NCBI GenBank assembly: GCA_035235625.1
Contig: CP141141.1
Coordinates: 6,128,968 to 6,192,967, forward strand
Direction of reading: 5' to 3'
Origin: Saururus chinensis
Taxonomy: Eukaryota > Streptophyta > Magnoliopsida > Piperales > Saururaceae
Length of the DNA stretch: 64,000 nt
The notes beneath the pieces were generated by a model that was not told the origin of the DNA, searched no databases, and saw nothing but the letters and a program-made list of their open reading frames with translations. Both the position numbers and the translations under genes were made by a program. This document shows, piece by piece, positions 3,758 through 45,562 of the stretch. Position 1 is the stretch's first letter. Every line of letters begins with the position of its first letter.

Positions 3758-5200
3758 TCAATCACATAACGGTTCCTTAATAAGAAGCTTCATTTTCTCC
3801 TCAAGAAATTTAATAACATCTTTTCTATCTTCTTTCAGAAGCAACTGCCTTAACTTTTCAAATGTGGAACCCGAAGGTCTGATGCCCTTCTCTATCATCT
3901 CTTCCAGGAAAACGCAAGCCTTGCTGACTTCCCCATGCTCACACAGGCCATTAATAAGAACAGAGAAAGTATGCATGCTTGGAACAAACTGCTTCATTCC
4001 CATATATTTCCACACTTTTAGAGCCAAATCCACCTTACTACTCTCACAGAACATTTTTATCATGATTGTGTAGGTATCTGAATCAGGTTCGCACACCTTG
4101 ATCATCTTTCTGAAAACCCTAAAGGCCTCTTCATTTTCCCCACGGCTTATTAAACTGTTAAGAATGACATTGCAGGTCCGTGAATTTGGACTTACACCTT
4201 TATGATCCATCTCCTTCAAAACCCTATAAACATTCTTAAACTTGCTTACCTTACAAAATGCACTTATCAGTGCATTATACACAACCACGTCAGCTACTAT
4301 CCCATTCCTCTCCATCTCAAGAAAACTATCCACTGCATCACCAATTTGCTTCTCAGTCCCAAAAGCATGAACTAAGATGCTATATATGTAACTGGTTGGC
4401 CTACAACCCCTGGAGCTCATGTTCTTAACAACACCAACGGCTTCCTCAACTCTCCCTGTCTTGCAAAGAATATCCACCATAATGCTATAGGTGACAATAT
4501 CAGGTTCACAGCCTCTATCAACCATCTCGCGGAAGACCTGCCTTGCCTTTGGTAAATTTGGCTCCTTCCCCCATCCTTCTAGGAGAATACTGTAAGTTTT
4601 TGAGTCAGGAACAAACCGCTCTTTCATGCTTTCAAAGATCTCATGAGCTTTCCTGACATTCTTGGACTTGCAGAATGCACTCAGTAGGCTATTAAATGCA
4701 GCCAAGTTTGGGACCAGGCCGTACTTATCCATGACATTAAAGGTGTAGATTGCTTCATCCACCTTATGGGCCCTTGCATACTTTCTAATGATCACACAAA
4801 AGGTCTCAATATTTAAAATTTCTTTTCTGCGCATAACATTAACAAGGTCCCACATGATCTGAAACTGCCGAATCTTGGCCAAAGAAGCAATCATTATGTG
4901 ATAAGCTTTGACACTATGAGTGTAATTTTGCTGCTTCTGAGCCCACTCAAAGAATCGATAAGCTTGCATGCCAGCATTCTCAAATCTTTTGAGCACTACT
5001 TCCACAACATCAGGTGAAATTTTAATCCCGCTCTCATTGAGAACAACATCCAGACCTAGCTTTGGGCAAGACATCATGATTTTGCAAATCCTTTTTTCAG
5101 GATCAGCAGCCTCTTGCAGGGCACCACTAGAGCTATACATTCTGATAACCATCACCCATGCCGGATAAACCTTGTTGCAAGCAGTATGAACCTTGATCAT
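3758..5200 (-). CDS. P-class pentatricopeptide repeat protein, probably mitochondrial
   Basis: Single-exon gene of 480 codons. The first 25 or so residues (MIKVHTACNKVYPAWVMVIR and on to MYSSS) are basic and lack acidic residues, like a mitochondrial presequence. From about residue 97 to 444 there are about ten tandem 35-residue PPR motifs, easily read as TYSIMVDILCKTGRVEEA (in the 236-270 repeat) and VYNALISAFCKVSKFKN (306-340). There is no E, E+ or DYW extension, so it belongs to the P class, which typically binds organellar RNA for stabilisation, splicing or translation. Overall sequence and repeat layout recall the Arabidopsis APPR6/At1g77360-type mitochondrial group, but that is from memory. 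The exact RNA target cannot be read from sequence here. The first in-frame ATG is used; the frame upstream closes at once (TAATG overlap at 5200). Upstream lies an inverted copy of the CCT2 promoter (7.4-8.0 kb), which could serve this gene. Confidence 0.9.
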   Translation of the reverse strand: MIKVHTACNKVYPAWVMVIRMYSSSGALQEAADPEKRICKIMMSCPKLGLDVVLNESGIKISPDVVEVVLKRFENAGMQAYRFFEWAQKQQNYTHSVKAYHIMIASLAKIRQFQIMWDLVNVMRRKEILNIETFCVIIRKYARAHKVDEAIYTFNVMDKYGLVPNLAAFNSLLSAFCKSKNVRKAHEIFESMKERFVPDSKTYSILLEGWGKEPNLPKARQVFREMVDRGCEPDIVTYSIMVDILCKTGRVEEAVGVVKNMSSRGCRPTSYIYSILVHAFGTEKQIGDAVDSFLEMERNGIVADVVVYNALISAFCKVSKFKNVYRVLKEMDHKGVSPNSRTCNVILNSLISRGENEEAFRVFRKMIKVCEPDSDTYTIMIKMFCESSKVDLALKVWKYMGMKQFVPSMHTFSVLINGLCEHGEVSKACVFLEEMIEKGIRPSGSTFEKLRQLLLKEDRKDVIKFLEEKMKLLIKEPLCD

Positions 5201-7110
5201 TAATCTCTATCCAAAAGACACCAGTCTAGGAAGTTGAAAGAAGCAAATGGTAAATTGATTTTTCCCCCACCGAAAGGTGATCCGTGATTAGTGCTGACTA
5301 AATGAAATAGAGATAAAAACATAGAAATGAAAAATCTCAGATTAGATAGTGAAGCGATTAGTGCATACCCCAACCAGAATTCAATGAACAATTAACATCA
5401 TCATCACAAACCTTAATTCAGCTATGTAGGATTAATAACATGGATCCCACTCCACCATTTTGTGAATTTCATACTGATATTACTAATTTCCGTTTTCACA
5501 GTTACATTGCTTAAAAAAATTACATCAATTTGTTTTTCAAGCATAATGCCTCAAAAACAACAAAATTCACATATAACATTCTCCGTCGAATTTAAAGAGC
5601 AGATATCTAGCAGGCTTTGCCACCCCACCCACCTACTTCTAATAAGATTTGCCAGCCAAGATGTGAAAGGTCTTCAAACCCTTCGTCTTAGCATACTAGG
5701 TGACAGGTAGGTTCAATTATCACTACATATTCTCAGAGTCACATGCATTTCTTCATCTTTACTAAAAAGAAAAAAAAAGTAGAACAGATATAGCAACACG
5801 TCAATTTCTGTTTTTTCTACAGTTGAATTGATGACATTTAAATTCAAATGGTGCAAAGAGAGAACGATATAAAATGGCTTCTGTTGATGGCAGAAACATG
5901 GTGGAAATAATAAAAGTTCTTACATCAACAAGTTACATAGGAGAGTTCAACAGAAATGTTCAGAGGCTAAGCCCAACACTCCAATATTCACGATTCATCA
6001 AAATAAAAAATTGTCAAATGATGATAAAACTATGGAAAATCTGGGGAAATTAAAAAGGACACAAGTAGAAAACCTAGAATCAGTAAAAAAAAAGATGTAC
6101 GATCAACAGAAGAAGAAGAAAAAGTTTTTGTTCCCTCATTATACATGATGAGTAGAAAATAGCAGCACCATCTTGATCAAGCCACATGGATCTTTGACCA
6201 TTTCCAAAATAAGGTATAACTAATTCCTATAGTGAAAGGATACGAAAACATCAGTATCAAATTGGAGCTATGTCAAAAAGTCGTAGGGCGGGACAAATTC
6301 ATCCTGGTGGCCAATTCAGTTTGGTTAGGAAAATTTGGCAAAAGTTGGGGAAAAAATCAGCAACTAGAAAATGATATCAAATTATCAATTAATGTGAATA
6401 TGCAAATCAATGCAATTCATATAAGGATAGTGATATTCCTACACCCATAGGCCTCAAACCACATATGATTGGACTGGGAAAAGTGAATCTCATGATGTCC
6501 CACCTTCCCTATCTAATCAAAGGTGGTGTAAGGCCTATGTAGCCAAAAAGATGGAGTATGAATATCATTTTCCTTAATATAACAAACGACCAATCCCAAA
6601 ATTTATCAACATAAAATCCTAGTATAAAATAGAAATAAGGTATTTAGAATGTACATACCTTATCAAATACAGAGGAATTGAAAATCTGAACTCCAAATTC
6701 AAATCACTCAAATGTCTCCATTGCTTCCTGCACACCCCTAGCAAATAAGCCTTCAATTTCAAAATTCAAACCTATTAATTCCATCCATTCAAACTTCAAT
6801 CAAGCAATCATTCATACCTCAAGCAAACAATCTTACAAAGCACTAGCAAGCAACAATAATTTATTATGAAAAATAAGCACGCATAACCATTCTACTAGCC
6901 AAAATATTCAAGCCTTAAAGGAAACTTATCAAGTTTTAAACATCCCAAAAGCAAAGTAGTGAGTTAACTGATCAAATGAAACAGAGATTAATTGATGCTC
7001 TTTGCTCTAAAAAAAATCATTAACTAGACGCAGGAAAAGACTCCAAATGGCTATTTATTTAGAATAAAAAACTACTGACCAATCTTACGAAGGTTGGAAT
7101 TGGTGAAGAG
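5201..7110. other. Upstream region of the PPR gene, no coding sequence recognised
   Basis: AT-rich sequence between the PPR start codon and a GC-richer block at 7.1-7.3 kb. Short open frames occur on both strands but none shows a domain, codon bias or splice logic I can support. It may contain the PPR leader and leader introns. Confidence 0.5.
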
Positions 7111-7114
7111 TTAC

Positions 7115-7326
7115 CTCTGTCCCAAAGTGCGGACTTCGGAGGTGAACGGTGCGGACTTCGGAGGCTGAAGCTCTGCCCTCTGCCTCTGGTCGTAGACGGA
7201 CAGCACTGAGCGCCCTCTGCAGCTTCTAGCCTCCTTGTCGTCAATGAAGCCTCGGACACGGAGGGAGTGCTGTGGAGCTGTGGCCTGTAGAGGGACCGAG
7301 GGAGTAGATTTTGTTAGGGATGCCAC
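7115..7326 (-). CDS. Possible isolated coding exon of unknown product
   Basis: A minus-strand open frame starts at 7326 with MASLTKSTPSVPLQATAP and runs 70 codons to a good splice donor (AG|GTAACT, exon end 7115). It lies in a local GC-rich island, and a TATA-like TTATAAA sits just upstream at about 7337-7343. The predicted peptide is basic and Ser/Pro-rich and matches no family I recognise. I could not find the acceptor exon: joining to the two AG sites just before the PPR start runs into stop codons. It may be the first exon of a transcript from the inverted CCT2-like promoter, a gene fragment, or chance. Confidence 0.3.
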
Positions 7327-7394
7327 TCGGGTCGGGTTTATAAGGACCCTAACGGGGTTTGGATATGCTAAGTGGTAAAATGAATCTGGTACGG

Positions 7395-8010
7395 GTTTGA
7401 AATTTGGAATATGAAGGAAATCAGAATGGTCACCAACCCAAGCCCATAAACTAACCGCAAAATGGGAACTGTTGAAATTCGAACCTTGCTAAAACAAATG
7501 AAAATCTCAAAAACAGCAGAAAGCTAAATCAATGGAAACTGAAGCAACAGTGTAACCAGAATCTGAAGGACAAAAGCCCAATACCAACTACGGAAAAAAA
7601 AAATCCATGATACATTCCTATTACTCCCAGAAAAAAAACAGCAGAAATGGTGATCTTTGAAGCCAAAAAAAGTACCACAAAGGAAAAGTTACTAGAGACG
7701 AAAAGAGGGGAGGAAAAATTACCTCCGACTGATCGGTGCAAGGAGCGATCCGGCGATCGACGGGGTAAGATGACTGAGAAGCAGAGCCGTTTAGGGTTTT
7801 GAACTTGTTGGGTCCGACGGATCCCCGCCCAAATGTGTTGGCACGGGGGCTTGTGCGGTCTCCGTTGCGTGGCATTGCCTAAAACCGTCGATCTGTTCTT
7901 TGTGGGCCCCGCTCTATCTACGCTAGGTAACATCCGCATTTAGGGGTTCTGTTAGGATTTTTAAAAAACGGAAGTAAAATATTTTAAAATATAATTTTAA
8001 AACCCAAACT
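7395..8010 (-). repeat. Inverted copy of the CCT2 promoter and leader (left arm)
   Basis: About 600 bp that is the reverse complement of 10735-11348, differing at only scattered positions. It carries the upstream AT-rich segment, the GGGCCC site, the telo-box AAACCCTAAA, the leader exon ending GTCGGAG|GTAAT and most of the leader intron, all pointing leftward toward the PPR gene. The copy stops at about 7395, before the CCT2 second leader exon, so no CCT2 coding sequence was duplicated. The preserved promoter motifs mean it could still fire; that is inference. Confidence 0.9.
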
Positions 8011-8980
8011 TTAGTGTACAAATAGTCACTCAAGAGTATAATTCACTTTTTCTACTTGAAATATATAATTCCTTCTTCATGTCCCTTAGGGCAAATTAAT
8101 TAATTATAGTAAACTTCCTTTGTTTGTTCCTTCAATGGTTTTGCCTTATCCTCCTTTTAAGTTAGGCATGTCTCATGCTCTTTTATTTTTAAGTTTTTTA
8201 CTCATAGTTTCCCATTTTATTATTGTTGATACCACTTCGCCATGTCTAAGGCTGTAGAAGGTTCATGAGTTTTTCTTCTTCCTCACTTGTGGTCCAATTG
8301 AGTCTACCGCTCATGTCAAGTGCACTCCATAACCACTCTCATTCTGGAGGTTCTCCCAACCTTAGATTAAGATGGTTCACTAAGAATATTCCTTTTTTTC
8401 TCTCCATCTAGTTTTATTCACAATTTTTTTGTCAACACCGTGTTGACAAGTCAAACTCATGTCAACTTCTTTACACTCACACCCTAATGGCTAGGTTGAT
8501 GCCTATGTTGACGATTGCCTGTACTGATTTATGCATCATTTGTGCATCTATTGGTCCTTAACCTCTCCCAAGCCACTTTTAAAGCTTACTCATATACCCA
8601 TTGAATTATTAATTATTAAACATGGATTCACATACAAAATTCTTCATTCTCCTCACTACAATTAAATACCAACCCTAAGTAGTTTAATCATACAAATCTA
8701 ATTCTTGATTTATAAGTCCAATATCATAACATAACCTATATTTATCATTTAAACTACAACTTCTTATTTAGTATCACATGTTTTTTATTATTTAAGTGTG
8801 AGAATGTATGTGGCATACATATGAGTATTATTATCTTTCGATGATTTGAAGTATATAATTAAATCTCATAAAATCTGATTAAATTACTGATGTGTTGTTA
8901 GATATGGAATTATATGACATGTTTATAGCATGTGTTTTTATTGAAAACTTATAAAGAGTGATTAAAAGAAAAGAGGTAAA
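8011..8980. other. Spacer between inverted arms, no gene recognised
   Basis: AT-rich non-coding sequence with no long open frame and no repeat structure that I can define. It separates the left promoter arm from the tandem duplication. Confidence 0.5.
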
Positions 8981-10126
8981 GAATACACACACGCACGTAC
9001 ACATAGTGATATGCATTTAGGTTTTTATAACTATAACAAATGATCAATTAATCTTGAATGAAGTTTGAGATTTTCTCTAGAGTATTGAATGATTAATCAT
9101 CCCGTGAAAAATTGATTAAAATGAATTTCTTAAAGAATAATAAATGATTAATCACATTGTTAAAATGATTAATTGCACACTAGTATTTTGAGACCAATAC
9201 AGGAAACAACTAATTGTCTTGTAGAAGGATCAATTGCTCTGTACTCTAGTTACTTGAAATAGATTATTTTGATAATAATTTTTTACCTAATTGAACTTTA
9301 AGAGCTAAATTGACTTAACCCGGTATATAAAGATTTAAAAAACATGAAATTTAGATAGAGAGAAGAATTTTCTTTGTGGAAAAATAGTGCTTTTGTGATA
9401 TCTTCATTCTTATTCATTTGGTATTTTTTTGGACAAATAAAAAGAAATATGAGAATATTTAATTCATAAATTTTTTATAAATTGAATTTAAATTTCAAAC
9501 TACATTATCACACACATTGAAGGATAGAGCAAATCAAGGTGGAAAAAACGAAAGAATACACACACGCACCTACACATAGTGATATGCATTTAGGTTTTTA
9601 TAACTATGACAAATGATCAATTAATCTTGAATGAAGTTTGAGATTTTCTCTAGAGTATTGAATGATTAATCATCCTGTAAAAAATTGATTAAAATGAATT
9701 TCTTAAAGAGTTTAGAATAATAAATGATTAATCACATTGTTAAAATGATTAATTGCACACTAGTATTTTGAGGCCAATACAGGAAACAACTAATTGTCTT
9801 GTAGAAGGATCAATTGCTCTATACTCTAGTTACTTGAAATAGATTATTTTGATAATAATTTTTTACCTAATTGAACTTTGAGAGCTAAACTGACTTAACC
9901 CAGTATATAAAGATTTAAAAAACATGAAATTTAGATAGAGAGAAGATTTTTCTTTGTGGAAAAATAGTGCTTTTGTGTATCTTCATTCTTATTCCTTTGG
10001 TAATTTTTTGGACAAATAAAAAGAAATATGAGAATATTTAATTCATAAATCTTTTATAAATTGAATTTAAATTTCAAACTACATTATCACACACATTGAA
10101 GGATAGAGCAAATCAAGGTGGAAAAT
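8981..10126. repeat. 573-bp tandem duplication (two copies)
   Basis: Two head-to-tail copies begin with GAATACACACACGCAC at 8981 and at 9554 and run in register to about 10126. Differences are few: single-base changes plus small indels, such as an added GTTTAGAATAA-like segment near 9711. The unit is AT-rich with no coding frame. The low divergence implies a recent duplication. Its position, centred between the inverted CCT2 promoter arms, suggests that the rearrangements may be linked. Confidence 0.92.
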
Positions 10127-10734
10127 TGACTAAAGCTTGAAGATCAAGGAGTTTGTGCAAATTATGTGTGGTAGAGGCCAATACCATAATGAGAAATACT
10201 TTTTATCTATAATATTTTGTTAATTATTATTTTTAAAAAGTTATTTATTTAATTTTATTGACAAGCTAACTAAAAAGAAGGCCAAAGAGCAACAATGAGG
10301 GAAAAAACGAAAAGGATGCTTTTGTATGAAATTTCTATAAAATTCTTTTAATTCCGCTTAAATTACAAAGGTGGGGCGGAATTAAAAATTTTGCCAATAA
10401 GTTGATTCAAAGATGTTTTGAGGCAGAATCGATCGGAATTACCAAATAGGTGATTCTATCGATTTGGACTCCCAACCCTTATTTTGAAATTATAGATTCT
10501 ATTATTTTATAATAATTACTTTTAAAATTGATTTAAGCTTTAAAAAAATATATTATATAAATAAAGCCTATTTTAAAAGTTCAAAATTACCTACCTTTAT
10601 AAGATCTTAATTAATAGGGTTTAAATTTAAAAATATAATAATATAAAACATATATATATCGAAGAGAAAGAGTTATATTAGTTTAAAATTTTAAAAATAA
10701 ATTTAATAACTTATACTAAAAGTTTTTATAACTA
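10127..10734. other. AT-rich spacer upstream of CCT2
   Basis: No gene recognised. Highly AT-rich, containing fragments related to the tandem unit only at its left edge. It leads directly into the right promoter arm. Confidence 0.5.
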
Positions 10735-11348
10735 ACAATAATTCACGTTTGGGTTTCAAAATTATATTTTAAAATATTTCACTTCCGTTTTTTAAAAATC
10801 CTAGAACCCCTAAATGCGGATTTTACCCAGCGTAGATAGAGCGGGGCCCACAAAGAACAGATCGACGGTTTTAGGCAATGCCACGCAACGGAGACCGCAC
10901 AAGCCCCCGTGCCAACACATTTGGGCGGGGATCCGTCAGACCCAACAAGTTCAAAACCCTAAACGGCTCTGCTTCTCAGTCATCTTACCCCGTCGATCGC
11001 CGGATCGCTCCTTGCACCGATCAGTCGGAGGTAATGCTTCCTCCCCTCTTTCCGTCTCTAGTAACTTTTCCTATGTGGTACTTTTTTTGGCTTCAAAGAT
11101 CACCATTTCTGCTGTTTTTTTCTGGGAGTAATAGGAATGTATCATGGATTTTTTTCCGTAGTTGGTATTGGGCTTTTATCCTCCAGATTCTGGTTACACT
11201 GTTGCTTCAGTTTCCATTGATTTAGCTTTCTGCTGTTTTTGAGATTTTCATTTGTTTTTGCAAGGTTCGTGTTTCAACGGTTCCCATTTTGCGGTTAGTT
11301 TATGGGCTTGGGTTGGTAACCATTCTCATTTCCTTCATATTCCAATTT
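10735..11348 (+). repeat. CCT2 promoter and leader (right arm of inverted duplication)
   Basis: Partner of 7395-8010 in opposite orientation. This copy is joined to the real CCT2 coding exons and is therefore the parental arm by the simplest reading. Identity ends at about 11348, inside the last bases of the leader intron. Confidence 0.9.
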
Positions 11349-11404
11349 AGGTTCGTTCGAGAAGAATTTCTTCTACTCATCGACGCTTCTTTTGATACTA
11401 CTCC
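10840..11404 (+). promoter_or_regulatory. CCT2 core promoter elements, 5' leader and leader intron
   Basis: A GGGCCCA element at about 10844 (site II/TCP-like) and a telo-box AAACCCTAAA at 10954-10963 are typical of plant housekeeping and translation-linked promoters. A leader exon appears to end at GTCGGAG (about 11031) before GTAATGC. The acceptor is probably TTTAG at about 11350, giving a 5' UTR intron and a short second leader exon running into the ATG at 11405. No clear TATA box was seen. Leader boundaries are inferred from splice-site look only. Confidence 0.6.
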
Positions 11405-14400
11405 ATGACGGTATGATCAAAGTTTCAGTTCCACGTTGTTTTGTCTCTACTCAATTTTGTTTTTACTTGGACCTCAAAATTTGGTCATTGATGGTCTCAG
11501 GTCAATAATCTCTTTAAAGATGAAGCCACGGAAGAGAAGGGAGAGCGGGCGAGGATGGTGAGACTCATGTGCTCTCATTTACATTGTTTGTAGTTGGTAG
11601 TGATACAATAAAGGCTGATTAGATTTGATGTTTCACTCTGGATAAACTTTGTGTATGGGTTTCTGTGATATGTAATTTGGTTTATAGTTTATACATATCA
11701 AACTGCGTTATGTCTTTTGTTTGTTCTTTCTAATTATTTGAAATAGCAGCTTCGCATAAAAAGTCTAATAACATGGCTTACGAGCTGAGGTTTTCAGGAC
11801 CACATGTCTCTGTAGAAATGACATGAAAAAAGTGAATCCCATAGTGATTAGTATATTGTGGTCTTCTGTACATTAAAATTAGTGCCTTTTTTGGTTTAGG
11901 CTTCTTTTGTTGGTGCAATGGCGATTGCGGATCTGGTCAAGACTACACTTGGCCCTAAAGGAATGGTAAACTTTTATTTCTTAATGATTTGCTGATTTAT
12001 ATTGCTATCGGCTAGATGCAATAAAAATTATTTTTCTCAAACGTGAATGTAGGACAAAATTTTACAGTCAACTGGAAGAGGTCACAGTGTTACTGTTACT
12101 AATGACGGTGCAACCATCTTGAAATCGCTTCACATTGATAACCCTGCTGCTAAGGTTCTAGTTGGTATCCTGTTAATGATTTATAGATTTGTGCTAAAGC
12201 CTTCTTTCTTTGAACAAATGATGACAGTTTCTGTTAGCAAACAAAATGAGCAGTGCATAATACAATAGTATATATAAAGCTCGGCTAGATGAAAGCCAAA
12301 AGCAAGGGAAGCATGATAGGGAAAGGAAATTGCTCAGGTTTATTATATTCCCAGTTATATCATGTCTGTCTTTTATGTTTACATATGTTGCGATGACGTT
12401 ACTTGTTAACCTACCTCTAAAAGTGACACATCCCAGGTTTTATAAATCATTTTTAAATTGATTCAATTTCGGAAATATAATTTCATAAAACATGTCCGGA
12501 CATGGCTAAAAAAACTAGGTCATAGTAATTAACTCATTGCCATAAACAACATTTAGTAGGAGTAGATATTTTCAGGATCCTCTGTCATGTGCAAATGTAA
12601 TAACACATTAAGTAAGCAATATTTACAATAACACTACATGGCTCTATTACGTTAAATCAAATCCACTAAAATTACGCCATAGTCTGTTTTATAAGAGAAG
12701 ATACCAAAACAACAAAAATAAACCTAATTTTCTAGACTTCAACTGTCCATTACTCTACTCAGAATTACTTGTGCAGTGGTGACTATTGGGTATACTCAGC
12801 AGAATTGTAAATTTTTTATACATGCATCAATTACATCAAAAGTGAATAAGGACCATCATTTCGATCCATCACTGTAGTGAAATTTATGCATGACAACGGA
12901 ACTCTCATCCTGAGTATTCAAAATCACATTGAGTCAAATCCATAACTCAGAAGAAAAATGCAATTTTTGAAATCGGAAATCATGACAGATTATTTGATTG
13001 AAACATAATCAAAACAGGTGCAACTTACATATTAAATACATCTTCATTGACTCCAAAACTCACATATGCAATTAGGAAAACAAAGCATAAATCAAATTTC
13101 ATTTTGGTTGCTATAAGAGCTTGCTGCAAGAGTCTCAGGTATTACATGAAGTTGTTCCACAATTTACATTTATGGTGGGCATGCTACAGATGTTGCAGTT
13201 TGTAGTGAATTTTGAAGATGATAATTTGCAGGTGGAGAGAAAGAGTGAGGGATCTGAAAATGGAATAGGCATCAAGAAAACGTCACTTAAGATGCTTGCA
13301 ATATGGCATTCCTTTAAGACAAAGTAACTGATGTTTTACATGTAAAACACAACCCAGAATGCTGCAAATTTGAAATTTTTACGGTTAAATTGTTAGTTTT
13401 TCCTTAATATTCATATCAGACATTTCGAAAGTGCAAGATGATGAAGTTGGTGACGGTACCACTTCTGTTGTTGTTTTGGCTGGAGAGCTTCTAAGGGAGG
13501 CAGAGAAACTAGTGAATGCAAAGATTCATCCCATGACTATCATTGCAGGTATAACATGTTGCCTTCCTGTGTTTTCTAAGGATAGCCAGTTGAAAGTACT
13601 AAATCGTGGTAGTACCCTGGGATTTTTACAAGTAAGATTATATATTATACTTTTGGTTTGCCAGTGTGCTTTTGCTGAAATGAAGGCTGAAGGCCCTGTT
13701 TATGATGTTTACTTCTATTACAGTTTGTAGTAGGTGACTTGTATAATGTGCACGCTTCATGTTGGTTCAGCTTATTACTTTAAGTTATATGACCAAAAAA
13801 AGGGGAATGCTGATTTGACAGATTCTACATATATTAGAAGGAATTGTTTAAATAAGGTGGTGCTTGTGCAAAGCTGTGTCATCATGCATGGCGGAGATGC
13901 TAGTTACTATTTTTTTCTGCTGAAGAAGTTACCTGTGTGCCGTATAACCGTATCTGCAGTTTTTTATTGGGTTGATCCTTGAGTTTTCACATTGAATTTA
14001 TTGCCGACTTCATCTAAAGTCTGCTTTCTGGTGGTTCTTGGTGTTTCATACAGTATAGGCAGGCAAGCGGGAAGGCCCTATATTCTGTTTTATCTGTGGG
14101 ATCTTCATAGGCATTATCCCAAGAATAAGTTGGTGCAGAAAGAGGTGGTGTTAATCTATGATTCTAGACATTGCAGATTTTGGATTGGTTGAAGCTTGAG
14201 GGTTACAATTATGGTTTTTGTGGACTCTTTGGAATGCGAGTGTTTTTTTTTAATGGTAGGGGGAAGCGGGGGAGGGGGGTTAATATGATGGATGAAGAGG
14301 GTAGATTTAAGGTTTTTAGGTTCAAGGTAACGGTGTACTTAAAGGCTAGTTTTTGCTAATAGGAGAAGTAAAGGATTATTTGAGTCTTTTGGCTCATGCT

Positions 14401-20400: not shown

Positions 20401-23400
20401 AGGTAAGAGGGGCTCTGGTCGGAGAACCCCTTATGCCTTGCGGCAGTCTGGATGGAGAAGGTGGAGCTGCAGCAACTGGCGGTCCACTGGCTGGCAGATC
20501 GCCCTGAAGGGGACGAGAGGAAGAGGGGTGGTGTTGGGGGGGTGGGGGGGTTAATTTGAAATGTAAATGATACATTTCAGAAAATCTATCAGATATGTAT
20601 CCCATTTTTTTTGAAATATTTTGAAAATGCCTATGTGTCCGCGCTGTATCCATATCTGATACGTTTTGGATACTGATATGTGAGGCTTGAGGGCGTAGCC
20701 ATGCTTCCTTGTTGGCTAACCATCCGCTTACAATTCCTTTCCCTCTTCTCCCTCTTGTCAGACATTTCCGCAATTAAGGAAAAAGCCCCTACGTTTATGT
20801 TGATTTCCTCTATTTTTTGTCTTTCACAGCCTGAAAAGCTGATCATGTGAACTTGTTTTTTATTCTATGCTTCCATGCTTTCCAAGACTTCATCGGTGTT
20901 ACACTCGAGTCTTTTCTATGAATTTATTTCTAGGAAAAGCCTTCTCTATACAATTAAAGTAGTTCAGTGTGGAGACTAATTGTGACAAAAAATCAGGCAT
21001 GAGAACTGGCGAAGACACATAATACAATCTGCTTATGCAGAAAGATGAGGATTATTAAAATAAGTAATCACCTACACTTTTTGCAACTTTATGAAGATTA
21101 ATTTTTTATGTTCTTTATTTTTAATACAATCTTTTCTAGCAAACACTTGTAGCTTGAGAATGGTCTTTTCTTTTTTTGCTTTTAGTAGGAGTGTACGTGC
21201 ATAATGGACGTGTTACACTCAGGAGATTTAGAGTTATTTTTCCAAATGCAAATTGAGCTTTAAGTTTAATTATCTTACCCAATCCATAAATAAGAGTTCA
21301 TAAATAATATTTTTGGTGTATCAGAGTAATTTAGGACTTTTATGACAAAAATCTCGGCTCCCTTTCTACTTTAATAATAGTATAGTTTAGGGGTAATTTA
21401 GGATTTCTATGACAAAAAATCTCTGCTACTCTTCTTGTTTCAATAAGTTCTAAACCGATAGGTCTATGAAATCCATATGTGGCTACAAGGTTATTCTTAT
21501 TGGAGAAATCATTATAATATTTTAGGTCGGTTGAATTCTAAATTAATTAAAAATGACAAAAATGTCTACCCCCTTCTCACTTTAATAAGTTCTAGACCAA
21601 TTAGGACTATGAAATCTATATGTGGCTACAAGGTTATACTGAAGAAATAATTGTACTATTATAAGTCTCTTGTATTCTAAATTAATTAAAAGTTTCTTTG
21701 AAAGGACAATATAGGCATAGCGTGGCAAAAATCTCTGGCCACCTCACTTTAAAATTAGTATAGATATTGTGATGCAAAGCCAAATTGGGACCCAGATGCC
21801 AAAAACAGGACTCAAATGATTTGACTTTTATTTATTTATTTAGGATTACTTTGATTAGGATCTATAGTTTTATTTAGAAATTGCTTTATTTAAGACTTAG
21901 ATTTGATTTTATTTCCTGAGTTTATAAAGATTCTGAGATAGATGTGTTTATTCCAATTTAGGATTCTATTGTAAGCATATAAAAACGCATAGATATTCAT
22001 CAGTGAAGGTAGCCTGTGATTTTTAGTTTTTACGTTGTAGAGTTTTCTTCTTCTTTGTTGGTGGATTCCTACGCTATTGCGGGTGGACTCCAGTAAGCCC
22101 TTCTGTCCAGTAGATTTCAGTGGAAACCTTTGTGCGGACTCCAAGGGCCATATCTGCGCGCTCCCCTTCCATTTTCTCCTCAATTTCCCGTTTCCCCTTT
22201 GCTGAGATGCGCTGTTCTGCATTAGATTTGTTCTTCGCCTGCTTATTGATCAGAAAAGTCAGTTGAAACGTTTATATGTTCTGTATCTATGTACATAGGC
22301 AAATTTTTACTAGCAGTTTCTTCTTGTTTTAAGGAAAACGAAAAAAATGATAATACTCTTTGTTATTGCCATTTTTTATGTGTTTTTTTAAATATTCTAT
22401 TGTGGTAAAGTAAATTCTTTTCCTGAGGTTCGTTTGGAGACATTTTTTTTACAACATACTGGTCTTCTGAAAATCATTTACTTTTTAAAATTGGTTTCCC
22501 TTGCATTTGTAGCATGGGGAGGACAACATCCTCTGCTTGTTGACCTCTTGAACTAAGTCCCCTGATCACTCCACTGTCATTATGACTGCCAAATTAGTTG
22601 ACAGGCCAGGTCTAAACAGCCGTCAGTTGATTCAGCTAGGTCAATGGTCCCTTAGCTGGTCAACTTGATTAAGAAAATCTGATTGGATTATGTTTTTGAT
22701 TGGTTGTGCTATTTGTTTTCACTGTACATCAAACTGATTATTCTTTTGTTCCTTTTGTTTCAGGTTTATTCTTGACAAAAAAATTGGGGTTGGCCAACCA
22801 AAGCGCATAGAAAATGCAAAAATTTTGGTGGCCAATACAGCAATGGATACGGATAAAGTTAAAATATATGGGGCCCGTGTAAGAGTTGATTCTATGTCTA
22901 GAGTTGCTGAGATTGAGAGTGCCGAGAAACTGAAAATGAAGGAAAAGGTGCAAAAGATAATTAGCCATGGGATTAACTGCTTTGTGAACAGACAGTTAAT
23001 ATACAATTTCCCAGAAGAACTCTTTGCAGATGCAGGGATCCTTGCAATTGAGCATGCTGACTTTGATGGAATTGAGCGCCTTGCACTTGTCACTGGTGGT
23101 GAAATTGCATCTACATTTGACAATCCGGAGTCAGTTAAGCTTGGTCACTGCAAGCTTATTGAAGAAATAATGATTGGAGAGGACAAATTAATTCATTTTT
23201 CAGGGGTTGAATTGGGCCAGGCGTGTACAATTGTATTAAGAGGGGCAAGGTACTGGCTATTCTGTTTGACTGAAACTGTGGATTTTCTTCTCCATGTTGT
23301 GCATTATGCTTAGGTTGTGTTGTTGCTTTTTGCTTTTGTTTTCTGTATTATTTCGTTGCTATAACATATTGAAAATTGCATTTAGTTTTTGAGAGAAGAG

Positions 23401-30085: not shown

Positions 30086-31869
30086 TAACTTCACTAACCT
30101 ACTTCTCATTTCTAGCAGCTCTGGTTTTGACTTTGCCAACTCTACCACCTCCGCCATCGACACTGCTGCCTCTGCCACTAACTTTGTCGTCTTTGTCATT
30201 GGCTCCACTTGATTTGACTTCATCTTCACCTCCTCCTCCCCCTCCTTCTCCTCCTCTTCAACCTCTCCTCCCTCCTCCTCCCCTCTCATTTTCTTCCTAT
30301 GTTGCCTCCTCTTTGTCCCTCCCAGAATCTTACAAGATTGGTCACAAACTAGGTGGAGGAGCAATTAAGAATTTTTTCTACAAGTTCAAATCTTAAAAAA
30401 TGAACCAATAAACATGTGAAATTACTCAAAATGCTAATCAAAACCTCATACTTGATTATGAGTTTTTTCTAATGTTAAGCAAAACCTCGAACTCATAGGC
30501 CACAATTGATAGTCAACACTTGATAATTAGATTTATTGCAATAAAGGGTATATAAGACAAACATTATTAGTAACAATATCTTCCTTAGTATTTACAATGA
30601 ACTATCTTCACACACTAAATAAATAAAATAAAAAATAAAACAAATTTTAAACATGTTATTGTCAACTGTCAGCTATCTCAAATGTCAGCTATCAAATGTC
30701 CCAATTGTCAACTGTCATGCATCAGTAAACGGTTGTCAGAGCTGGAGAATAAGATTATGACTACCAGCACTAGAGAAGAAGGTGGTCTTTGGCATTGGAC
30801 GTTATGTCAGTAGATACTCGGGACATTTGACAGCAAATAGTAAATAGTTGCATGTTTAAAATTTGATTTATTTTTATTTGATTTATTTAATTTGTTACAA
30901 TAGTTCATTGTAAATACTTAGGGAGATATTGTCACTCATAATGTTGTATTATTATAACGCCCGAGATTTTTCACACATTTTCCTTAAAATTCACAGAAAT
31001 TTTTTGCAATATAACGTCTGTAAATCGGAGGAAAAATGACGAAATCAAAACCTGATAAAACAGTTTATAATTTTAAACACTAAACATCTATTTTTCATCT
31101 AAATATTTTCATCATACGGTCAAACATCGTACAACCAAAGCAAGTATCATTAGGCGCTACTCGAAAACACACGTACGAATAAATTGCTATGATCATAGAC
31201 TTTAAATACAAATCACTCCCAGGCATCCCTGAGTGCAAGTCCCATAACAGTCCACAGACTAATCCCAATGAAAGTCTAGAAAGATAAATATCTTAACGTC
31301 TCGTCTCACCCAATACATTAGATCGTGGCACAAATAAACTCGCAGTGAGTGAAGCATATACCTGAGTCAATGGGAATCAATCCACCGCTGAAACGAGCGT
31401 CCATCTCTAGGAGCTCTCTGCACAACCTGCAAAACCTCCTGTACATTGGGGCTAAAAAGTAGGGTAATGAGTATTTTCATACTCAGTAGGAAAATACCCA
31501 GTAGGGGAAACCAAAACAGTGAACTCACTAAGTTCATAAATACATGCATTCATGCAACTCAAACATGAAGCAGATAGGCATATCAATATCATGCTCATAC
31601 ACATACAAACATACCAAATGCACCATCGTGCCAAAGTCATACCAAAAGCACTACCAAAGTCATACCAAATGCACCATCGTGCCAAAATCGTACCATCAAA
31701 TTAAACTTACACAAACACCCCCATCCAGGGTCTTATAAACTTACTCGTACCATCGTATGCATATTCGTACAACATATGCATACTTGTACGACCTTACTCA
31801 TACAATCATACTTGTATGACCTTACTCGTACAACTTACACAAAATCACACTTACTGTCTTACTCAAAAA

Positions 31870-32105
31870 CATACTCTCACAATCGTACTCATACTCTTAC
31901 AGTCGTGCTCATACACATATTCTTACAGTCGTACTCATACACATATTCTTATAGTCGTGCTCATACTCATACTCTTACAGTCGTGCTCATACTCATACTC
32001 TTACAATCGTGCTCATACTCATACGCTTACATTCGTGCTCATACTCATACGCTTACAGTCGTGCTCATACTCATACGCTCACAATCATGCTCATAATCGT
32101 ACACA
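31870..32105 (+). repeat. Minisatellite, about 30-bp unit, in family A LTR
   Basis: About seven copies of a unit around TCATACTCTTACAGTCGTGC run in tandem with single-base variation. A shorter version is present in copy 2 at about 41890-41965 and an inverted one in copy 3 at about 47360-47490. The apparent long open frames here are repeat artefacts. Confidence 0.85.
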
Positions 32106-32324
32106 TATCAATGACTACTGAAGCTCATTACAACTAATAAGCTCCAGCATCGAAATGGAAAAGAATGCTACTGGAGCAACACCTTAATCTCTGAGGAGTG
32201 ACTAGACGCCATGGAATTTTTCGAAGGTAAGGCACACCAATGCTCATGGGGCACTGGATCAAATAGGTAAGAGTGGATCTATGATACTACTTACTTGAGT
32301 GCGCAAACATAAACACCCACACAT

Positions 32325-32710
32325 AAGGGGTCATACAGTTGCCCACCATAAGGGGTCTTATAGTGCCATAGAATTGCCCACCATAATGGGTCTTATAGTG
32401 CCATTGCCACTCTTGGGCAGAAAACATACAGTGCCACTTGGGCAAAAACATACAGTGCCACTTTTGGGCGAAATCATACAACGCTCTCAACAGAGCATCA
32501 AACGTCTGGGCTTATATAGCACACATACCAAATCGAAACATACGTCGCTCTCAATAGAACATCAGACGTCTGGGCTTCATACAGCACACAGACAAAGTCA
32601 GAATGTACATCGCTCTCAACAGAGCATCAAACGTCTGGGCTATCAGAAACATATGTCGCTCTCAGCAGAGCATCAGAAGTCCGGTGCTCTATACAGCACA
32701 CAGACAATAT
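32325..32710 (+). repeat. Two adjacent minisatellites in family A LTR
   Basis: The first, about 32325-32470, repeats GCCCACCATAAGGGGTCTTA and then CATACAGTGCCACTTGGGC. The second, about 32470-32710, has four units of about 65 bp built on CGCTCTCAACAGAGCATC followed by an ACGTCTGGGCT phrase. The inner part CGCTCTCAACAGAGC is itself a short inverted repeat. Corresponding arrays lie at about 42185-42600 in copy 2 and at about 46860-47130 in copy 3. Confidence 0.85.
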
Positions 32711-33464
32711 CCCGTATGATAAACACCATGACAAGACATGAGAAATGCTCAGCCGACTCATTATCGGCTAGCACAAACACGGAACTTAATCCGTCGAACC
32801 CTCAGGTCTCAAACTCACAATGCTATCATTAGTTGTGCTCATAATTTAAGTTTGAATTAAGTACATTATGCGGTATAATTATGCCAAACAAACTCACAGT
32901 CCTCGACTGATCAAACCGAAGCTGTGCCCGATCGAAACCCAAGTTCGTCAGGGCAGCAGACTTCACTTAATCCATCCACATCATGATCATAACACATCGT
33001 ACATCAAACCCTTATAGTCTTAGATACTTCGCCATCCACCTTATGGCCAAATCATCTTACACTGACATCATCAAATAAAGCTCCTCAAAGCCAACCCAGT
33101 TGTCGCCCTCTTACTTATATCTCACTTATTATGCTTACTTTTCACTTCATAATGTGTACATTATGCTTGTACAATTATGGACACTCTTACTGTCTGACAA
33201 TCCCCCAACATGTGCTCTAATCCAAAATAATTCATTCAAATCTTTACCCGTCATACTCATATACTCTGTCATCAGTCATACGCTTACACATCCATATTCA
33301 AAACCATACAAAACCTCTGTCACCTCTTACTGTCCATCGCCCATATCTCTGTCCACATACACTTACACATATCCATAACATAGGGAATTAGCCATCATAC
33401 ATACACATGTCTCACACATACATATAACATATACATACGGGTCATACATACGTAGCTTACAAAC

Positions 33465-33790
33465 ATGCTCACTAGCCATCACTAGTGCATATATACACAT
33501 TTATACATACGTCAAACATACACGCTAGCCATCACTAGCACATGCATACACACGTCAAACATACACGCTAACCATCACTAGCACATGCATAATTTATACA
33601 TACTCCAAACATGCACGCTAACCATCACTAGCACATGCATAATCTATACATACTCCAAACATGCACGCTAGCCATCACTAGCACATGCATACATATGTCA
33701 AACATACACACTAGCGATCACTAGCACATACATACACATTTATACATACTTCAAACGTGCACGCTAGCCATCACTAGCACATACTTACAT
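33465..33790 (+). repeat. Hairpin minisatellite with GCTAG...CTAGC core, seven copies
   Basis: Seven units of about 42-53 bp each contain a close variant of GCTAGCCATCACTAGC, a 5-bp stem with a 6-base loop, separated by ACATGCATA-type spacers. Copy 2 also has seven (43370-43690). Copy 3, in reverse orientation, has two (about 46160-46245). Confidence 0.9.
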
Positions 33791-36330
33791 CCAACATACT
33801 TACAACCAACATGCATGTCATATACATTTCAACATGCCATATAATCGTGCATACATGCATATCATGTAATCGGATCATTACTTAACATCCAAAGCATGGA
33901 ATCATACAATCCTAGCATGCTGCTACTCATTCAAAGCATGCTATCATGAAATTATGAGTTCAAAGCTCCCCTACCTCGTAATCATGACGTTTGATGGTGA
34001 GCACAATATGGTGGTGGCGTTGGTAGCGGAGTTTGTGGTCAAAACCATTGCCTAGCTGAAAGAGCTGCTGTCCCAAGGATTTTAGGAAGCGCAGGAACTA
34101 GTCACGGCCAAACGGGTGTCAGAAATCAATGCGGCAAAACCCGCGATCCACGGCGGCACACTAGGGCGGCTGGGAGAAAAGTCAAGCCAACCTAGGTGGT
34201 GGAGCGACCAGATGTAGAGGGTGTACTCACTGAAGATCGGTCGGTGTCTAAGACGTACTCAACTCGCCACAAGACGTCGAAATCGGCCATGGACAGCACC
34301 CAATGGTGACGATTTCGGTCAAGATAGGCCCACATAAGGGCGGAGAGCGTGGGGCAATGCTCGAGGACAAAAAAGAGGTGGAGGAAGGCTATGTGTCAAC
34401 TCCACTCGGTGGCAATGCCAATCGATAGTCAGGCGGCGCGAATGCGGCGCCTAAACCCAAAAGCACACGCGTGGCCACATGCACACGTGACCCAAAGGGG
34501 TGGGGGAGAGGGCTAAAAGGGGGCAACCCAAGGCCTACAAAAGAAACCAACAGGGTTAAGGCCCTAGCTGTGGCCAATCAAAGTAGCGACATCGCCGATA
34601 GCCACCTACAACCAATACCCATGGTGCAGGTGGTTGTGCATCTCGCACTGTATAGGGCAATGATAAGTGGCCCATTTTGAGTGGAGTGTATAATCGGGCC
34701 AATCGGGGCTGGCCCTCACTGTTGCTGAGCCGGGGCAAAGCCCATAATGGCCAAATGGCCCATAGCTCGCCAATGCCAACGACCCGAGACGCACCCAAAG
34801 CGTCTAATCGGGCAGAGCAATACAATAGAGGCGAGGCGGGGTCGAAAACGACAAACCCCTATCGACACTGGGTCGAGGTAGGTTGGACGGAGTCCTACCG
34901 GTGGCCGGACAACAACCAGAAACCCACCGGTGTCAAAATAATGCCACAGACAGTGAGATGGAGAATGTGAATAAAAACCCAACCAAAGTGTTGGTAGCTC
35001 ACCACGGACCAAACAAAGCATGGCGGCGGCTCTAGCCAGCGCCTATGGGTTCCTAGTAGCTAATTAAACATAAGTCTAGTTGAGGGCGGCCGCAAACAAT
35101 GTCAAAATCGTACACCCACGGTTCAAAAACGGGATTGAAGGAGAGAAAAACCTAAAGAAAAGTTCGGTACCTCGTGGAGGAGCGAAGAGGCCGTGGCGGC
35201 GGTCATAGCCAGTACTTACGGACTCGTGGCGGTGAGACAAAACAGATCTTGACAAGAATTGCTGGAATCCAACATCGGAGGAGGGAGAACGGAGCGACCA
35301 GAATTAAGCTTTGGTTCTCAAAAAAACTCACTGGACGTCAAATTTTTACTGGAATGTCGGTTCTGGAAACCAATGAATGATTTATATATATATAGTTAAT
35401 CTTTTTAATTTTTACATCTACGTCCCCAATATACGTTCACCTACCGATTATGTGTCGTAGCTCCAAAATTTGCGCCGTAAGCGCGCAGCGAGGCCTGCGC
35501 ACTGCGACTAAGCCCTACACCCAACTCTAGGGGTATAAATACGGGGTATGAATATATAAATACAAATATACCGAATACATTTTTTTGCTAAAAATGACCA
35601 GAAAAATAGCAGGAAAATCACAAAAAATCGTAGAAAAATCAGGGACACTTATATATCCCTTATTGCAATAAATTTGATTGTCGATTGTTGACTATAAGCT
35701 GTCAACTATCGATTGATGACTATTGACTATCAATACGAGGTTTGGGTTGGCGTTAGAAAAAGCTTAAAATTAAGTAAAAATAAAACTCACTCTTGGTTTT
35801 GAGTAGTTTAACATGCTTATAGATTCATTTTTTAAGATTTGAGCTTCTAGAGAAAAAATAAAAATAAAATCTTAATAGCTTTGCCCGCTAGTTTGTGATT
35901 GGTCTTGTTAAATTTTGGGAGGGAGGAAGAGGAGACAACTAAGGAGGAAAAGAAGAGGAGGATATAGAGGAGGAGATAAGGGAGGGAGGAGAGGAGGAAA
36001 AGGAGGAGGAGGAGGAGGAGGAGGAGGAGGTGAAGACAAAGTTGGATAAAGAGAAGCTAGTAGAGAAGACAACGAAGTTTGCAGCAAAGTAGATGGTGGA
36101 GCCGGTGATGGAGGAAGTGGAGTCAAAGCTAAAGCTGTTGAAATTGAGAAGTAGTGGGTTAGTAAAGTTATAAAGAAGAAAATGGGTAGAAGGTATTTTA
36201 GATAATTCATGCTACATATGTGGAGGTTTACATGTGCATAGGGCTATTTTGTGTATTACATGAAAATAAGAGATATTTTGTGTAATACATTGTGTCCTAG
36301 GGCCATTTTGACAAATTCCTTATAAGAAAA

Positions 36331-40960: not shown

Positions 40961-43900
40961 TGTAACGCCCGAGATTTTTCATACATTTTCCTTAAAATTC
41001 ACGAAATTTTTTTGCAATATAATGTTTGTAAATCGGAGGAAAAATGACGAAATCAAAACCTGATAAAATAATTTATAATTCAAAACAATAAACATCCATT
41101 TTCCATCTAAATATTTTCATCATACGGTCAAACATCGTACGGCCAAAGCAAATATCATCAGGCGCTACTCGAAAACACATGTACGAATAAATTGCTATGA
41201 TCATAGACTTTAAATACAAATCACTCCTAGACATCCTTGAGTGCAAGTCCTATAACAGTCCACAGACTAATCCCAATGAAAGTCCAGAAAGATAAACATC
41301 TTAACGTCTCGTCTCACCCAATACATTAGATCGTGGCACAAATAAACTCGCAGTGGGTGAAGCATATACCTGAGTCAATGGGAATCAATCCACCGCTGAA
41401 ACGAGTGTCCATCTCCAGGAGCTCTCCGCACAACCTGCAAAACCTCCCGTACAATGGGGCTAAAAAGTAGGGTAATGAGTATTTTCATACTCAGTAGGAA
41501 AATACCCAGTAGGGGAATCCAAAATAGTGAACTCACTAAGTTCATAAATACATGCATTCATGCAACTCAAACATGAAGCAGATAGGAATATCAATGTCAT
41601 GCTCATACGCATACGATCATACCAAATACACCATCGTGCCAAAGTCATACCAAATGCACCATCGTGCACAAAATCATACCAAAGGCACTATCGTGCCAAA
41701 ATCATACCAAAGGCACTATCGTGCCAAAATCGTACCATCAAATTAAACTTACACAAACACCCCTATCCAGGGTCATACAAACTTACTCGTACCATCGTAC
41801 GCTTACTCATACAACACATGCATACTTGTACGACCTTACTCGTACAACTTACACAAAATCACACTTACTGTCTTACTCAGAAACATACCCTCACAATCGT
41901 ACTCATACACATACTCTTATAGTCATGCTCATACTCATACACTTACAGTCGTGCTCGTACTATCGACCACTGAAGCTCATTACAACTAATAAGCTCCAAC
42001 GTCGAATGGAAATGAATGCCACTGGGGCAACGCCTTAACCTGTGGGGAGTGACTAGATGCCATGGACTTTTTCGAAGCTAAGGCACACCAATGCTCATGG
42101 GGCACTTGATCAAACAGGTAAGAGTAGATCCATAATACTACTTACCTGAGCGCGCAAACATAAACACCCACACATAAGGGGTCATACAGTTGCCCACCAT
42201 AAGGGGTCTTATAGTGCCATAGAATCGCCCACCATAATGGGTCTTATAGTGCCATAGAATTTGCCCACCATAATGGGTCTTATAGTGCCATTGCCACTCT
42301 TGGGCAGAAAACATACAGTGCCACTTGGGCAAAAACATACAGTGCCACTTTTGGGCGGAATCATACAACGCTCTCAACAGAGCATCAAACATCTTGGCTT
42401 ATATAGCACACAGACCAAATCGAAACATACGTCGCTCTCAACAGAGCATCAGACGTTTGGGCTTCACACAGCACGTAGACAAAGTCAGAATGTACATCGC
42501 TTTCAACAGAGCATCAAACGTCTGGGCAGATACAACACACAGACCAAATCGGAAACATATGTCGCTCTCAGCAGAGCATCAGACGTCCGGTGATCCATAC
42601 AGCACACAGACAACATCCCGTAGGATAAACACCATAGCAAGACATGAGAAATGCTCAGCCGATTCATTATCGGCTAGCTCAAACACGGAACTTAATCTGT
42701 CAAACCCTTAGGTCTCAAACTCACAACGCTATCATTAGCTGTGCTGATAATTCAAGTTTGAATTAAGTATATTATGCGGTACAATTATGCCACACAAACT
42801 CACAGTCCTCGACTGATCAAACTGAAGTTGAGCCCGATCGAAACCCTAGTATGTCAAGGCAGCAGACTTCACTTACCCGTCCACATCATGGACAAAACTC
42901 ATCGTACATCAAACCCTTACAGTCTTACATACTTCGCCATCCATCTTATGGCCAAATCATCTTACACTGACATCCTCAAATAAAGGTCCTTAGAGCCAAC
43001 CCAGTTGCCGCCCTCTTACTTATATCTCACTTGTTATACTTACTTTTCACTTCATAATTTGTACGTTATGCTTGTACAATTATGCACACTTTTATTGTCT
43101 GACAATCGCCCAACATACAATCCAACCCAAACCGATCCATTCTAATCCTTGCCCGTCATACTTATATCCTTTGTCATCCGTCATATGCTTACACATCCAT
43201 ATCCAAATCCAGACAAAGCCTCTGTCACCTCTTACTGTCCATCGCCCATACCTCTGCCCACATACACTTACACATCCATATCATAGGCAAAAAGCCATCA
43301 TACATACATATGTCTCACACATACGTAAAACATACACATATGATCATACATACATAACTTACAAACATGCTCACTAGCCATCACTAGTGCATACACACAC
43401 ATTTATACATATGTCATACATACACGCTAGCCATCACTAGCACATGCATAATTCATACATACTCCAAACATGCACGCTAGCCCTCACTAGCATATGCATA
43501 CATATGTCAAACATACACGCTAGCCATCACTAGCACATGCATAATTCATACATACTCCAAACATGCACACTAGCCATCACTAGCACATGCATAATTCATA
43601 CATACTCCAAACATGCACGCTAGCCCTCACTAGCACATGCATAATTCATACATACTCCAAACATGCACGCTAGCCATCACTAGCACATGCATACATCCAA
43701 CATACTTATAGCCAACATGCATGTCATATGCATTTCAACCTACCATACAATCATGCGTACATGTACATCATGCAACCGGATCGTTACTTAACATCCAAAG
43801 CATGGAATCATACAATCCTAGCATGCTACTACTCATTCAAAGCATGCTATCATGAAATTACGAGTTCAAAGCTCCCCTACCTCGTAATCATGACATTTGA

Positions 43901-45562
43901 TGGCGAGCACACGACGGTGGCGGCGTCGGCCGCGGAATTGGCGGTCAAAACTGTTGCCTGGATGAGAGAGCTATTGTCCCGAGGGTTTTAGGATGTGCCG
44001 GAAACAATCACAGCCAAACAGGGTGTCAGAAGTCAATGCGGCAAAATCCGCGATCCACGGCGGCACACTAGGGCGGCCGGGAGAAATATCATGCCAACAT
44101 GTGGCGGTGCAACCAAATGTCGATGGTGTACTCACTGAAGATTGGCCGCTAAGACATACTCAGCCGGCCACAAAGACGTCAAAATCGGCCGTGGACAGCA
44201 CTCAACGGCGATGATTTTGCATCAACATGGGCCCACATATGGGCGGAATGCATAGGGCAACATTCGAGGACAAAGGAGAGGTGGAGGAGGCTCTAGTGGT
44301 CAACTCCACTCAGTGGCAAAGCCAACCGATGGTCAGGCAGCGCGAATGCGGCGCCTAAACCCAGAAGACACGCGTGGTCACATGCACACACGACCCAAAG
44401 GGGCGGGGGAGAGGGTTGACATGAGGCGAACCAAGGCCCACAAAAGCCAACAGGGCTAAGGCCCTAGCTGTGGCCAATCAAAGCGGCGACATCGCCGATA
44501 GCCACCCACAACCAAAACCCATGGTGCGGGCGGCTGTGCATCTTGCATGGTATAGGGCAATGACAAGTGGCCCATTCCTGGCGGAGTGTATAATTGGGCC
44601 AATCGGGGTGACCCTCATTGTCACCGAGCCAGGGCAGAGCCCACGATGCCAAAAATGGCCCACGGCTCGCCGATGCCAATGACCCGAGGCGCACCCAAAG
44701 CGTCTAATCGGGCGAAGCAAGGCAATAGGGGCGAGGCGGGGTCAGAAACGGCAAACCCCTACTAACACCGGGTCAAGGTAGGCTGGACGAAGTCTTACCG
44801 GTGGCCGGATGACAACCGGAAACTCACCGGCGTCAAAATAATGCCACGGACAGTGAGATGTAAATAGAAAGAAAACCCGACCAAAGTGCCGGTAGCTCAC
44901 CACGAAGCGAAGAAAGCATGGCGTTGGCTCTAGCTAGTGCCTATGGGTTCCTAGCGGCCAGCTAAACATAAGTCTAGTTGAGAGAGGCCGCAAACGATGT
45001 CAAAATTGTACACCCATAGTTCAAAAATGGGATTGAAGGAGAGAAAAACCCGAAAAAGGGTTCGGTACCTCGTAGAGGAGCGAAGAGGCCGTGGCGGCGG
45101 TCATAGCCGTAGCCGGTACCTATGGACTCGTGGTAGTGAGGCAAAGCGGATCCTAATAAGAATCAAAGGAATTCGACGATGGTGGAGGGAAAACAGAGTG
45201 ACCCGATATGCCCTCGGGTTTTCTCACAAAACCACTGGACGTGAAAAAAACTTCTAGAAGTCGAGTTCTGTAATCCGAAGGATGTTTTCTTATATATATA
45301 GTTAATCTTTTTAATTTTTATATCTATGTCCCTAATACATGTTCACCTCCTGGTTACGCGTCGTAGCTCCAAAATTCGTGTCGTAAGCGCGCAGCGAGGC
45401 CCGCGGCCTGCGACTAAGCCCCACACCCGACTCTGCGGGTATAAATATGGGGTATATATACATAAATATGAATACGCCATAGCGTCACATTTTCCAGCTA
45501 AAAATAACCAAAAAAATAGCAAAAAAATCACAGAAAATTGTAGAAAAATCAGGGACCTTACA
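40961..45562 (+). mobile_element. Family A solo LTR, copy 2 (4.6 kb), nested in copy 3
   Basis: Begins TGTAACGCCCGAGATTTTTC and ends CAGGGACCTTACA, with perfect TGTCC duplications (40956-40960 and 45563-45567). Copy 3 sequence continues in register on both sides. The two ends are similar to each other inverted (TGTAA..GCC and TGTAAGGTCC), but the 5-bp duplication and TG...CA ends favour an LTR. At 4602 bp it is very long for an LTR, a size seen in Tat/Ogre-type Ty3 elements or LARDs. No gag-pol was found, so lineage is inference. Confidence 0.9.
43370..43690 (+). repeat. Hairpin minisatellite of copy 2, seven units
   Basis: Counterpart of 33465-33790, with the same GCTAGCC(A/C)TCACTAGC core in seven units. 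The order of core variants differs from copy 1, suggesting unit-level conversion or slippage since the copies split. Confidence 0.88.

Follow-up and report, generated by a model that had tools for sequence, protein, structure and literature searches.

Inverted duplication of the CCT2 promoter and leader beside a PPR gene in Saururus chinensis, with a possible gain of an alternative promoter

The locus described here raises the question of what becomes of a housekeeping promoter that has been copied without its gene. In a stretch of 64,000 bp from Saururus chinensis (assembly GCA_035235625.1, contig CP141141.1; the whole stretch is called the window, and all positions are counted from its first base), the promoter, the leader exon and most of the leader intron of the chaperonin gene CCT2 are present twice in inverted orientation, and the left-hand copy faces a gene of the PPR family, whose members act mostly in organelles. 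We find that this inverted segmental duplication of a housekeeping promoter is genuine, and tentatively suggest that through it the PPR gene acquired a further, alternative promoter.

The window was compared with itself using BLAST (low-complexity filter on, E cutoff 1e-8, printed matches at least 80 bp long). Positions 7400–8009 on the minus strand match 11348–10747 as an inverted pair with 95.9% identity over 610 columns (E = 0). Global alignment of the arms from end to end gives 17 substitutions in 602 ungapped columns, a Jukes-Cantor (JC) distance of 0.029, and local alignment shows three indels amounting to seven gap columns. The pair is far beyond chance; the first 21 kb have one other printed self-match, a tandem duplication (about 580 bp) in the spacer between the arms. 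The arms and the main elements within them are as follows.

7400–8009, minus strand: left arm, an inverted copy without a CCT2 coding exon, facing the PPR gene (self-match, alignments)
10747–11348, plus strand: right arm, with the CCT2 promoter, leader exon and most of the leader intron, probably the original (self-match and alignments, followed by the CCT2 start codon region)
7791–7799, minus strand: telo box AAACCCTAA of the left arm
10954–10962, plus strand: telo box AAACCCTAA of the right arm
7903–7908, plus strand: site II motif TGGGCY of the left arm
10845–10850, minus strand: site II motif TGGGCY of the right arm
7723–7790, minus strand: copied leader exon, start approximate, without ATG, donor GT at 7722 (splice scan)
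7400–7722, minus strand: copied leader intron, without its presumed original 3' splice site (alignments, junctions)

These results agree with an initial annotation of the sequence, which had described about 600 bp of CCT2 upstream and leader sequence occurring twice, inverted and about 2.7 kb apart; the aligned arms span 602 columns and the spacer 2,737 bp. Its statement that the left copy has no CCT2 coding exons and is oriented at the PPR gene is borne out by the arm limits and by the PPR open frame at 3758–5200 (minus strand), and duplication of a housekeeping promoter in inverted orientation by the telo box, site II motif, leader and donor found in both arms. The leftmost limit had been placed at 7395, which is about 5 bp too far left. 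Beyond its limit the left arm passes into unlike sequence. No terminal repeats or target site duplication of a mobile element were seen by eye at the four arm junctions, where no systematic search was made.

The sequence to the right of the right arm gives clues to the direction of copying, and the CCT2 elements concerned are listed here.

10965–11030, plus strand: CCT2 leader exon, start approximate and guessed from the telo box position (PMC3022908), donor GT at 11031 (splice scan)
11031–11350, plus strand: CCT2 leader intron, 3' end presumed (sequence, splice scan)
11405–11407, plus strand: CCT2 start codon (sequence and joined-exon match)

The open frame at 22843–23313 matches TCP-1 beta through its residues 1–139 (E = 2.9e-70), and the first CCT2 coding residues, joined by hand from three exons, also match TCP-1 beta (E = 4.7e-11). 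The start codon at 11405 lies 57 bp past the end of the right arm, which is therefore the natural place of the CCT2 promoter and leader. By parsimony we infer that the right copy is the original, as it continues into the presumed intron end and the start codon of CCT2. The arms cease to be homologous no more than about 2 bp from the 3' splice site presumed for the CCT2 leader intron (AG at 11349–11350), so the left copy is without that site; the presumed acceptor ending at 11350 has a moderate score (1.14). The direction of substitution was also considered as a means of telling which copy has decayed. Read from right to left, the changes comprise six C to T, three A to G, two G to A, no T to C and six transversions, and this approach was rejected because the changes are too few.

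On the other side, promoter sequence has been copied beside another gene and is aimed at that gene. The elements found there are the following.

3758–5200, minus strand: PPR gene, 480 codons in one open frame (PPR_2 match, 4.7e-88)
7115–7312, minus strand: orphan GC-rich exon, presumed native PPR leader, without ATG, with a donor at 7114 and a possible internal acceptor at 7284 (sequence, splice scan; start only guessed, roughly 30 bp past the TATA-like box)
7337–7342, minus strand: TATA-like box, presumed native PPR promoter (sequence)

The TATA-like box at 7342 is 58 bases past the left arm on the same strand, and the interval 7115–7326 has 60% GC and no ATG. Box and orphan exon seem to be the PPR gene's own promoter and leader. 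Within the presumed leader exon, a 22-bp GC-rich unit is present in about two copies at 7127–7169. If the PPR gene does have its own promoter, the copied one would be an addition rather than a replacement.

An alternative promoter could have arisen as follows. A second copy of the CCT2 promoter, leader exon and nearly the whole leader intron would have come to lie, inverted, some 60 bp upstream of the TATA-type promoter of the PPR gene, and this left copy would start transcripts towards that gene. With the end of its intron lost, the copied leader would have to be joined to a different acceptor, for which the site at 7284 in the orphan leader exon is the simplest choice, and a second splice would lead from donor 7114 towards the PPR start codon. 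The outcome would be a second, housekeeping-type promoter beside the gene's own. The initial annotation had proposed that the copy may drive the PPR gene or the orphan exon. In favor of this are the orientation of the copied promoter at the PPR gene, the intact donor and the well-ranked acceptor at 7284; that the orphan exon comes with a TATA-like box of its own (7342) counts against it, and the proposal stands as possible and unproved. A more specific version, in which the copied promoter is spliced onto the PPR leader and the PPR gene and CCT2 are co-regulated by twin telo box/site II promoters of the type used by a cytosolic chaperonin, across 2.7 kb of unrelated DNA, is doubtful.

The splice route was evaluated by scanning the PPR-facing strand from 8009 to 5150 with approximate score matrices. 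Donor 7722 ranks second and donor 7114 fifth among the 151 GT sites, and acceptor 7284 is seventh of the 140 AG sites and third among those between 7721 and 7115. When the leader (7723–7795) is joined to 7115–7284 and to the bases before 5200, the sole ATG is that of the PPR gene in 5 of 5 variants. Other acceptors, between 5290 and 7000, outscore those at 5200–5230, so the route through 7284 is one candidate path into the PPR gene.

Motif content is another indicator of promoter identity. In the left arm, a telo box and a TGGGCY motif stand close together upstream of the leader, the arrangement expected of a telo box/site II promoter. In passages of the report on these motifs, telo boxes of plant translation-related genes are mostly located at most 50 bp from start sites, and the association of telo box and site II motif is proposed as a tool for finding cryptic Pol II promoters (PMC3022908). 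Like the translation-related genes described there, both arms here carry both motifs; unlike them, one arm has no CCT2 coding sequence to serve. That paper's passages on telo box/site II promoters do not mention CCT genes, nor does its main text contain the word “chaperon” (PMC3022908).

Several results weigh against an alternative promoter. A site II motif lies within 150 bp of the telo box at 9 of the 22 telo clusters in the window, so the pairing is not rare; taken alone, the two motifs are thus weak evidence, and motif rarity was dropped as an argument for a promoter. The copied intron holds stronger acceptors (7587 and 7562) than 7284, and those nearest the PPR start codon (5200–5230) are weak, with scores of 0.88 and −0.14. 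The PPR gene, with its apparent TATA box and leader, has no need of the copy. Finally, the conservation of the core is less telling than it first appears. The core promoter and leader have 1 substitution in 207 columns, compared to 16 in 395 elsewhere (Fisher P = 0.009). However, the 207-column stretch was picked after the alignment had been seen, and a scan test correcting for this post hoc choice gives P = 0.097; if the CCT2 arm alone were constrained, one or no core change would be expected with P = 0.078. Core conservation was therefore rejected as proof of selection. The 200 bp up to the donor also differ from the rest (P = 0.016), with a cut that was likewise set after seeing the alignment, and the comparison of the intron with the rest of the arm gives P = 0.15. 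The slower change of the core is a hint of selection, suggestive only, and gene conversion could be another way of keeping the cores alike.

Promoter change through local duplication is already known, for example at the cucumber F locus, where, as described in part of the source, a local rearrangement likewise sets sequence of a neighboring gene upstream of another gene, CsACS1G (PMC7072070). Unlike CsACS1G, the present case involves a promoter, leader and intron alone, copied in inverted orientation and not known to have an effect. A reported divergent pair likewise joins a PPR gene with a heat shock or chaperone-related gene, but a single stretch of 773 bp divides those genes, whereas the present locus has two promoter copies about 2.7 kb apart. 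Among the matches listed from open-licence papers, no title concerned the pairing of CCT2 with a PPR gene or an inverted copy of the CCT2 promoter, which does not show that none has been published. Were the left copy active, the locus would show, in clean natural form, a promoter and leader duplicated without their gene, and the stepwise gain of a promoter by a neighbor could be traced there.

Almost as likely as an alternative promoter is a silent relic: the inverted segmental duplication would have arisen by chance and its left copy would be without function, leaving the PPR gene to use only its own promoter at about 7312–7342. The locus would then be ordinary duplication debris. The TATA-like box and leader of the PPR gene, the lack of the presumed 3' splice site in the left copy and the non-significance of slower core change once corrected (P = 0.097) are all consistent with this explanation. 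It fits less well with the core motifs and donor, which are all intact while 16 of the other 395 columns of the arms differ, and one would expect an entire promoter to be functional at first after being copied.

We consider it very improbable that the arms constitute a silencing locus, in which small RNAs would act against the CCT2 promoter and leader, either from a hairpin transcript of about 600 bp or, without a hairpin, through the promoter duplication itself. The arms are long, nearly identical and inverted, as a hairpin requires, and share nine perfect-match runs of at least 21 bp, the longest being 109 bp. Precedents are given in parts of three reports: in tobacco cells, promoter methylation is set off when an inverted repeat of the 35S promoter is transcribed (PMC6737654), Mu killer of maize is a natural hairpin case (PMC2563033), and an Arabidopsis epiallele with a tandemly duplicated promoter, free of any inverted repeat, has 24-nt small RNAs on it (PMC7978347), so that a hairpin is not required. 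Mu killer is, like this locus, an inverted duplication able to pair as RNA; there, transcription yields one long hairpin, whereas here the two promoters would fire apart (PMC2563033). Likewise, the tobacco repeat stood behind an inducible promoter (PMC6737654). Judging from the order of motifs and leader, both arm promoters point outward, so that no transcript from either one would include the two arms together. The two leaders would be nearly the same in sequence and would not be complementary, as the initial annotation stated. Its suggestion of a hairpin RNA from read-through is a weak one: with both promoters expected to fire away from the spacer, a third promoter would have to read through. 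In addition, CpG and CHG sites do not show decay in either direction (24 of 25 and 22 of 24 kept, respectively, few sites with little power), a result that also speaks for the alternative promoter, and shutting down an essential chaperonin gene would probably be harmful. Silencing at the arms is thus unlikely.

An assembly or library artefact is the least probable explanation. Palindromic reads and haplotype mix-ups can create false inverted repeats, but arms that differ by 17 substitutions and three indels, stand 2.7 kb apart and have unlike flanks do not resemble a fold-back read.

The age of the duplication was estimated from the 16 changes in 395 columns outside the core. Under two assumed rates (6.5e-9 and 2.6e-9 per site per year), it would be about 3.1 and 7.8 million years, respectively. 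The region between the arms is as follows.

8010–10746, no strand: AT-rich spacer (26.9% GC) of 2,737 bp with a tandem duplication of about 580 bp

The spacer contains no stop-to-stop frame of 60 codons. The two units of its tandem, 8968–9546 and 9542–10125, differ by 15 substitutions in 577 columns; they are perhaps of similar age to the arms, and possibly arose in the same burst of rearrangement. By eye, the 13 bases at the tandem junction (9541–9553, ggaaaaaacgaaa) recur at 10300–10312 behind the second copy, as templated filler might.

Farther along the window, a tandem duplication of about 140 bp with 80% identity is located at 21409–21691, between the CCT2 exon ending near 11965 and the exon at 22843. 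Scans of the window for tRNAs and against Rfam gave no match. A repeat of several kb is present in three copies, two of them direct (30955–35658 and 40963–45567) and one inverted (48341–45565); pieces of it are 75–91% identical, and it is probably a transposable element family.
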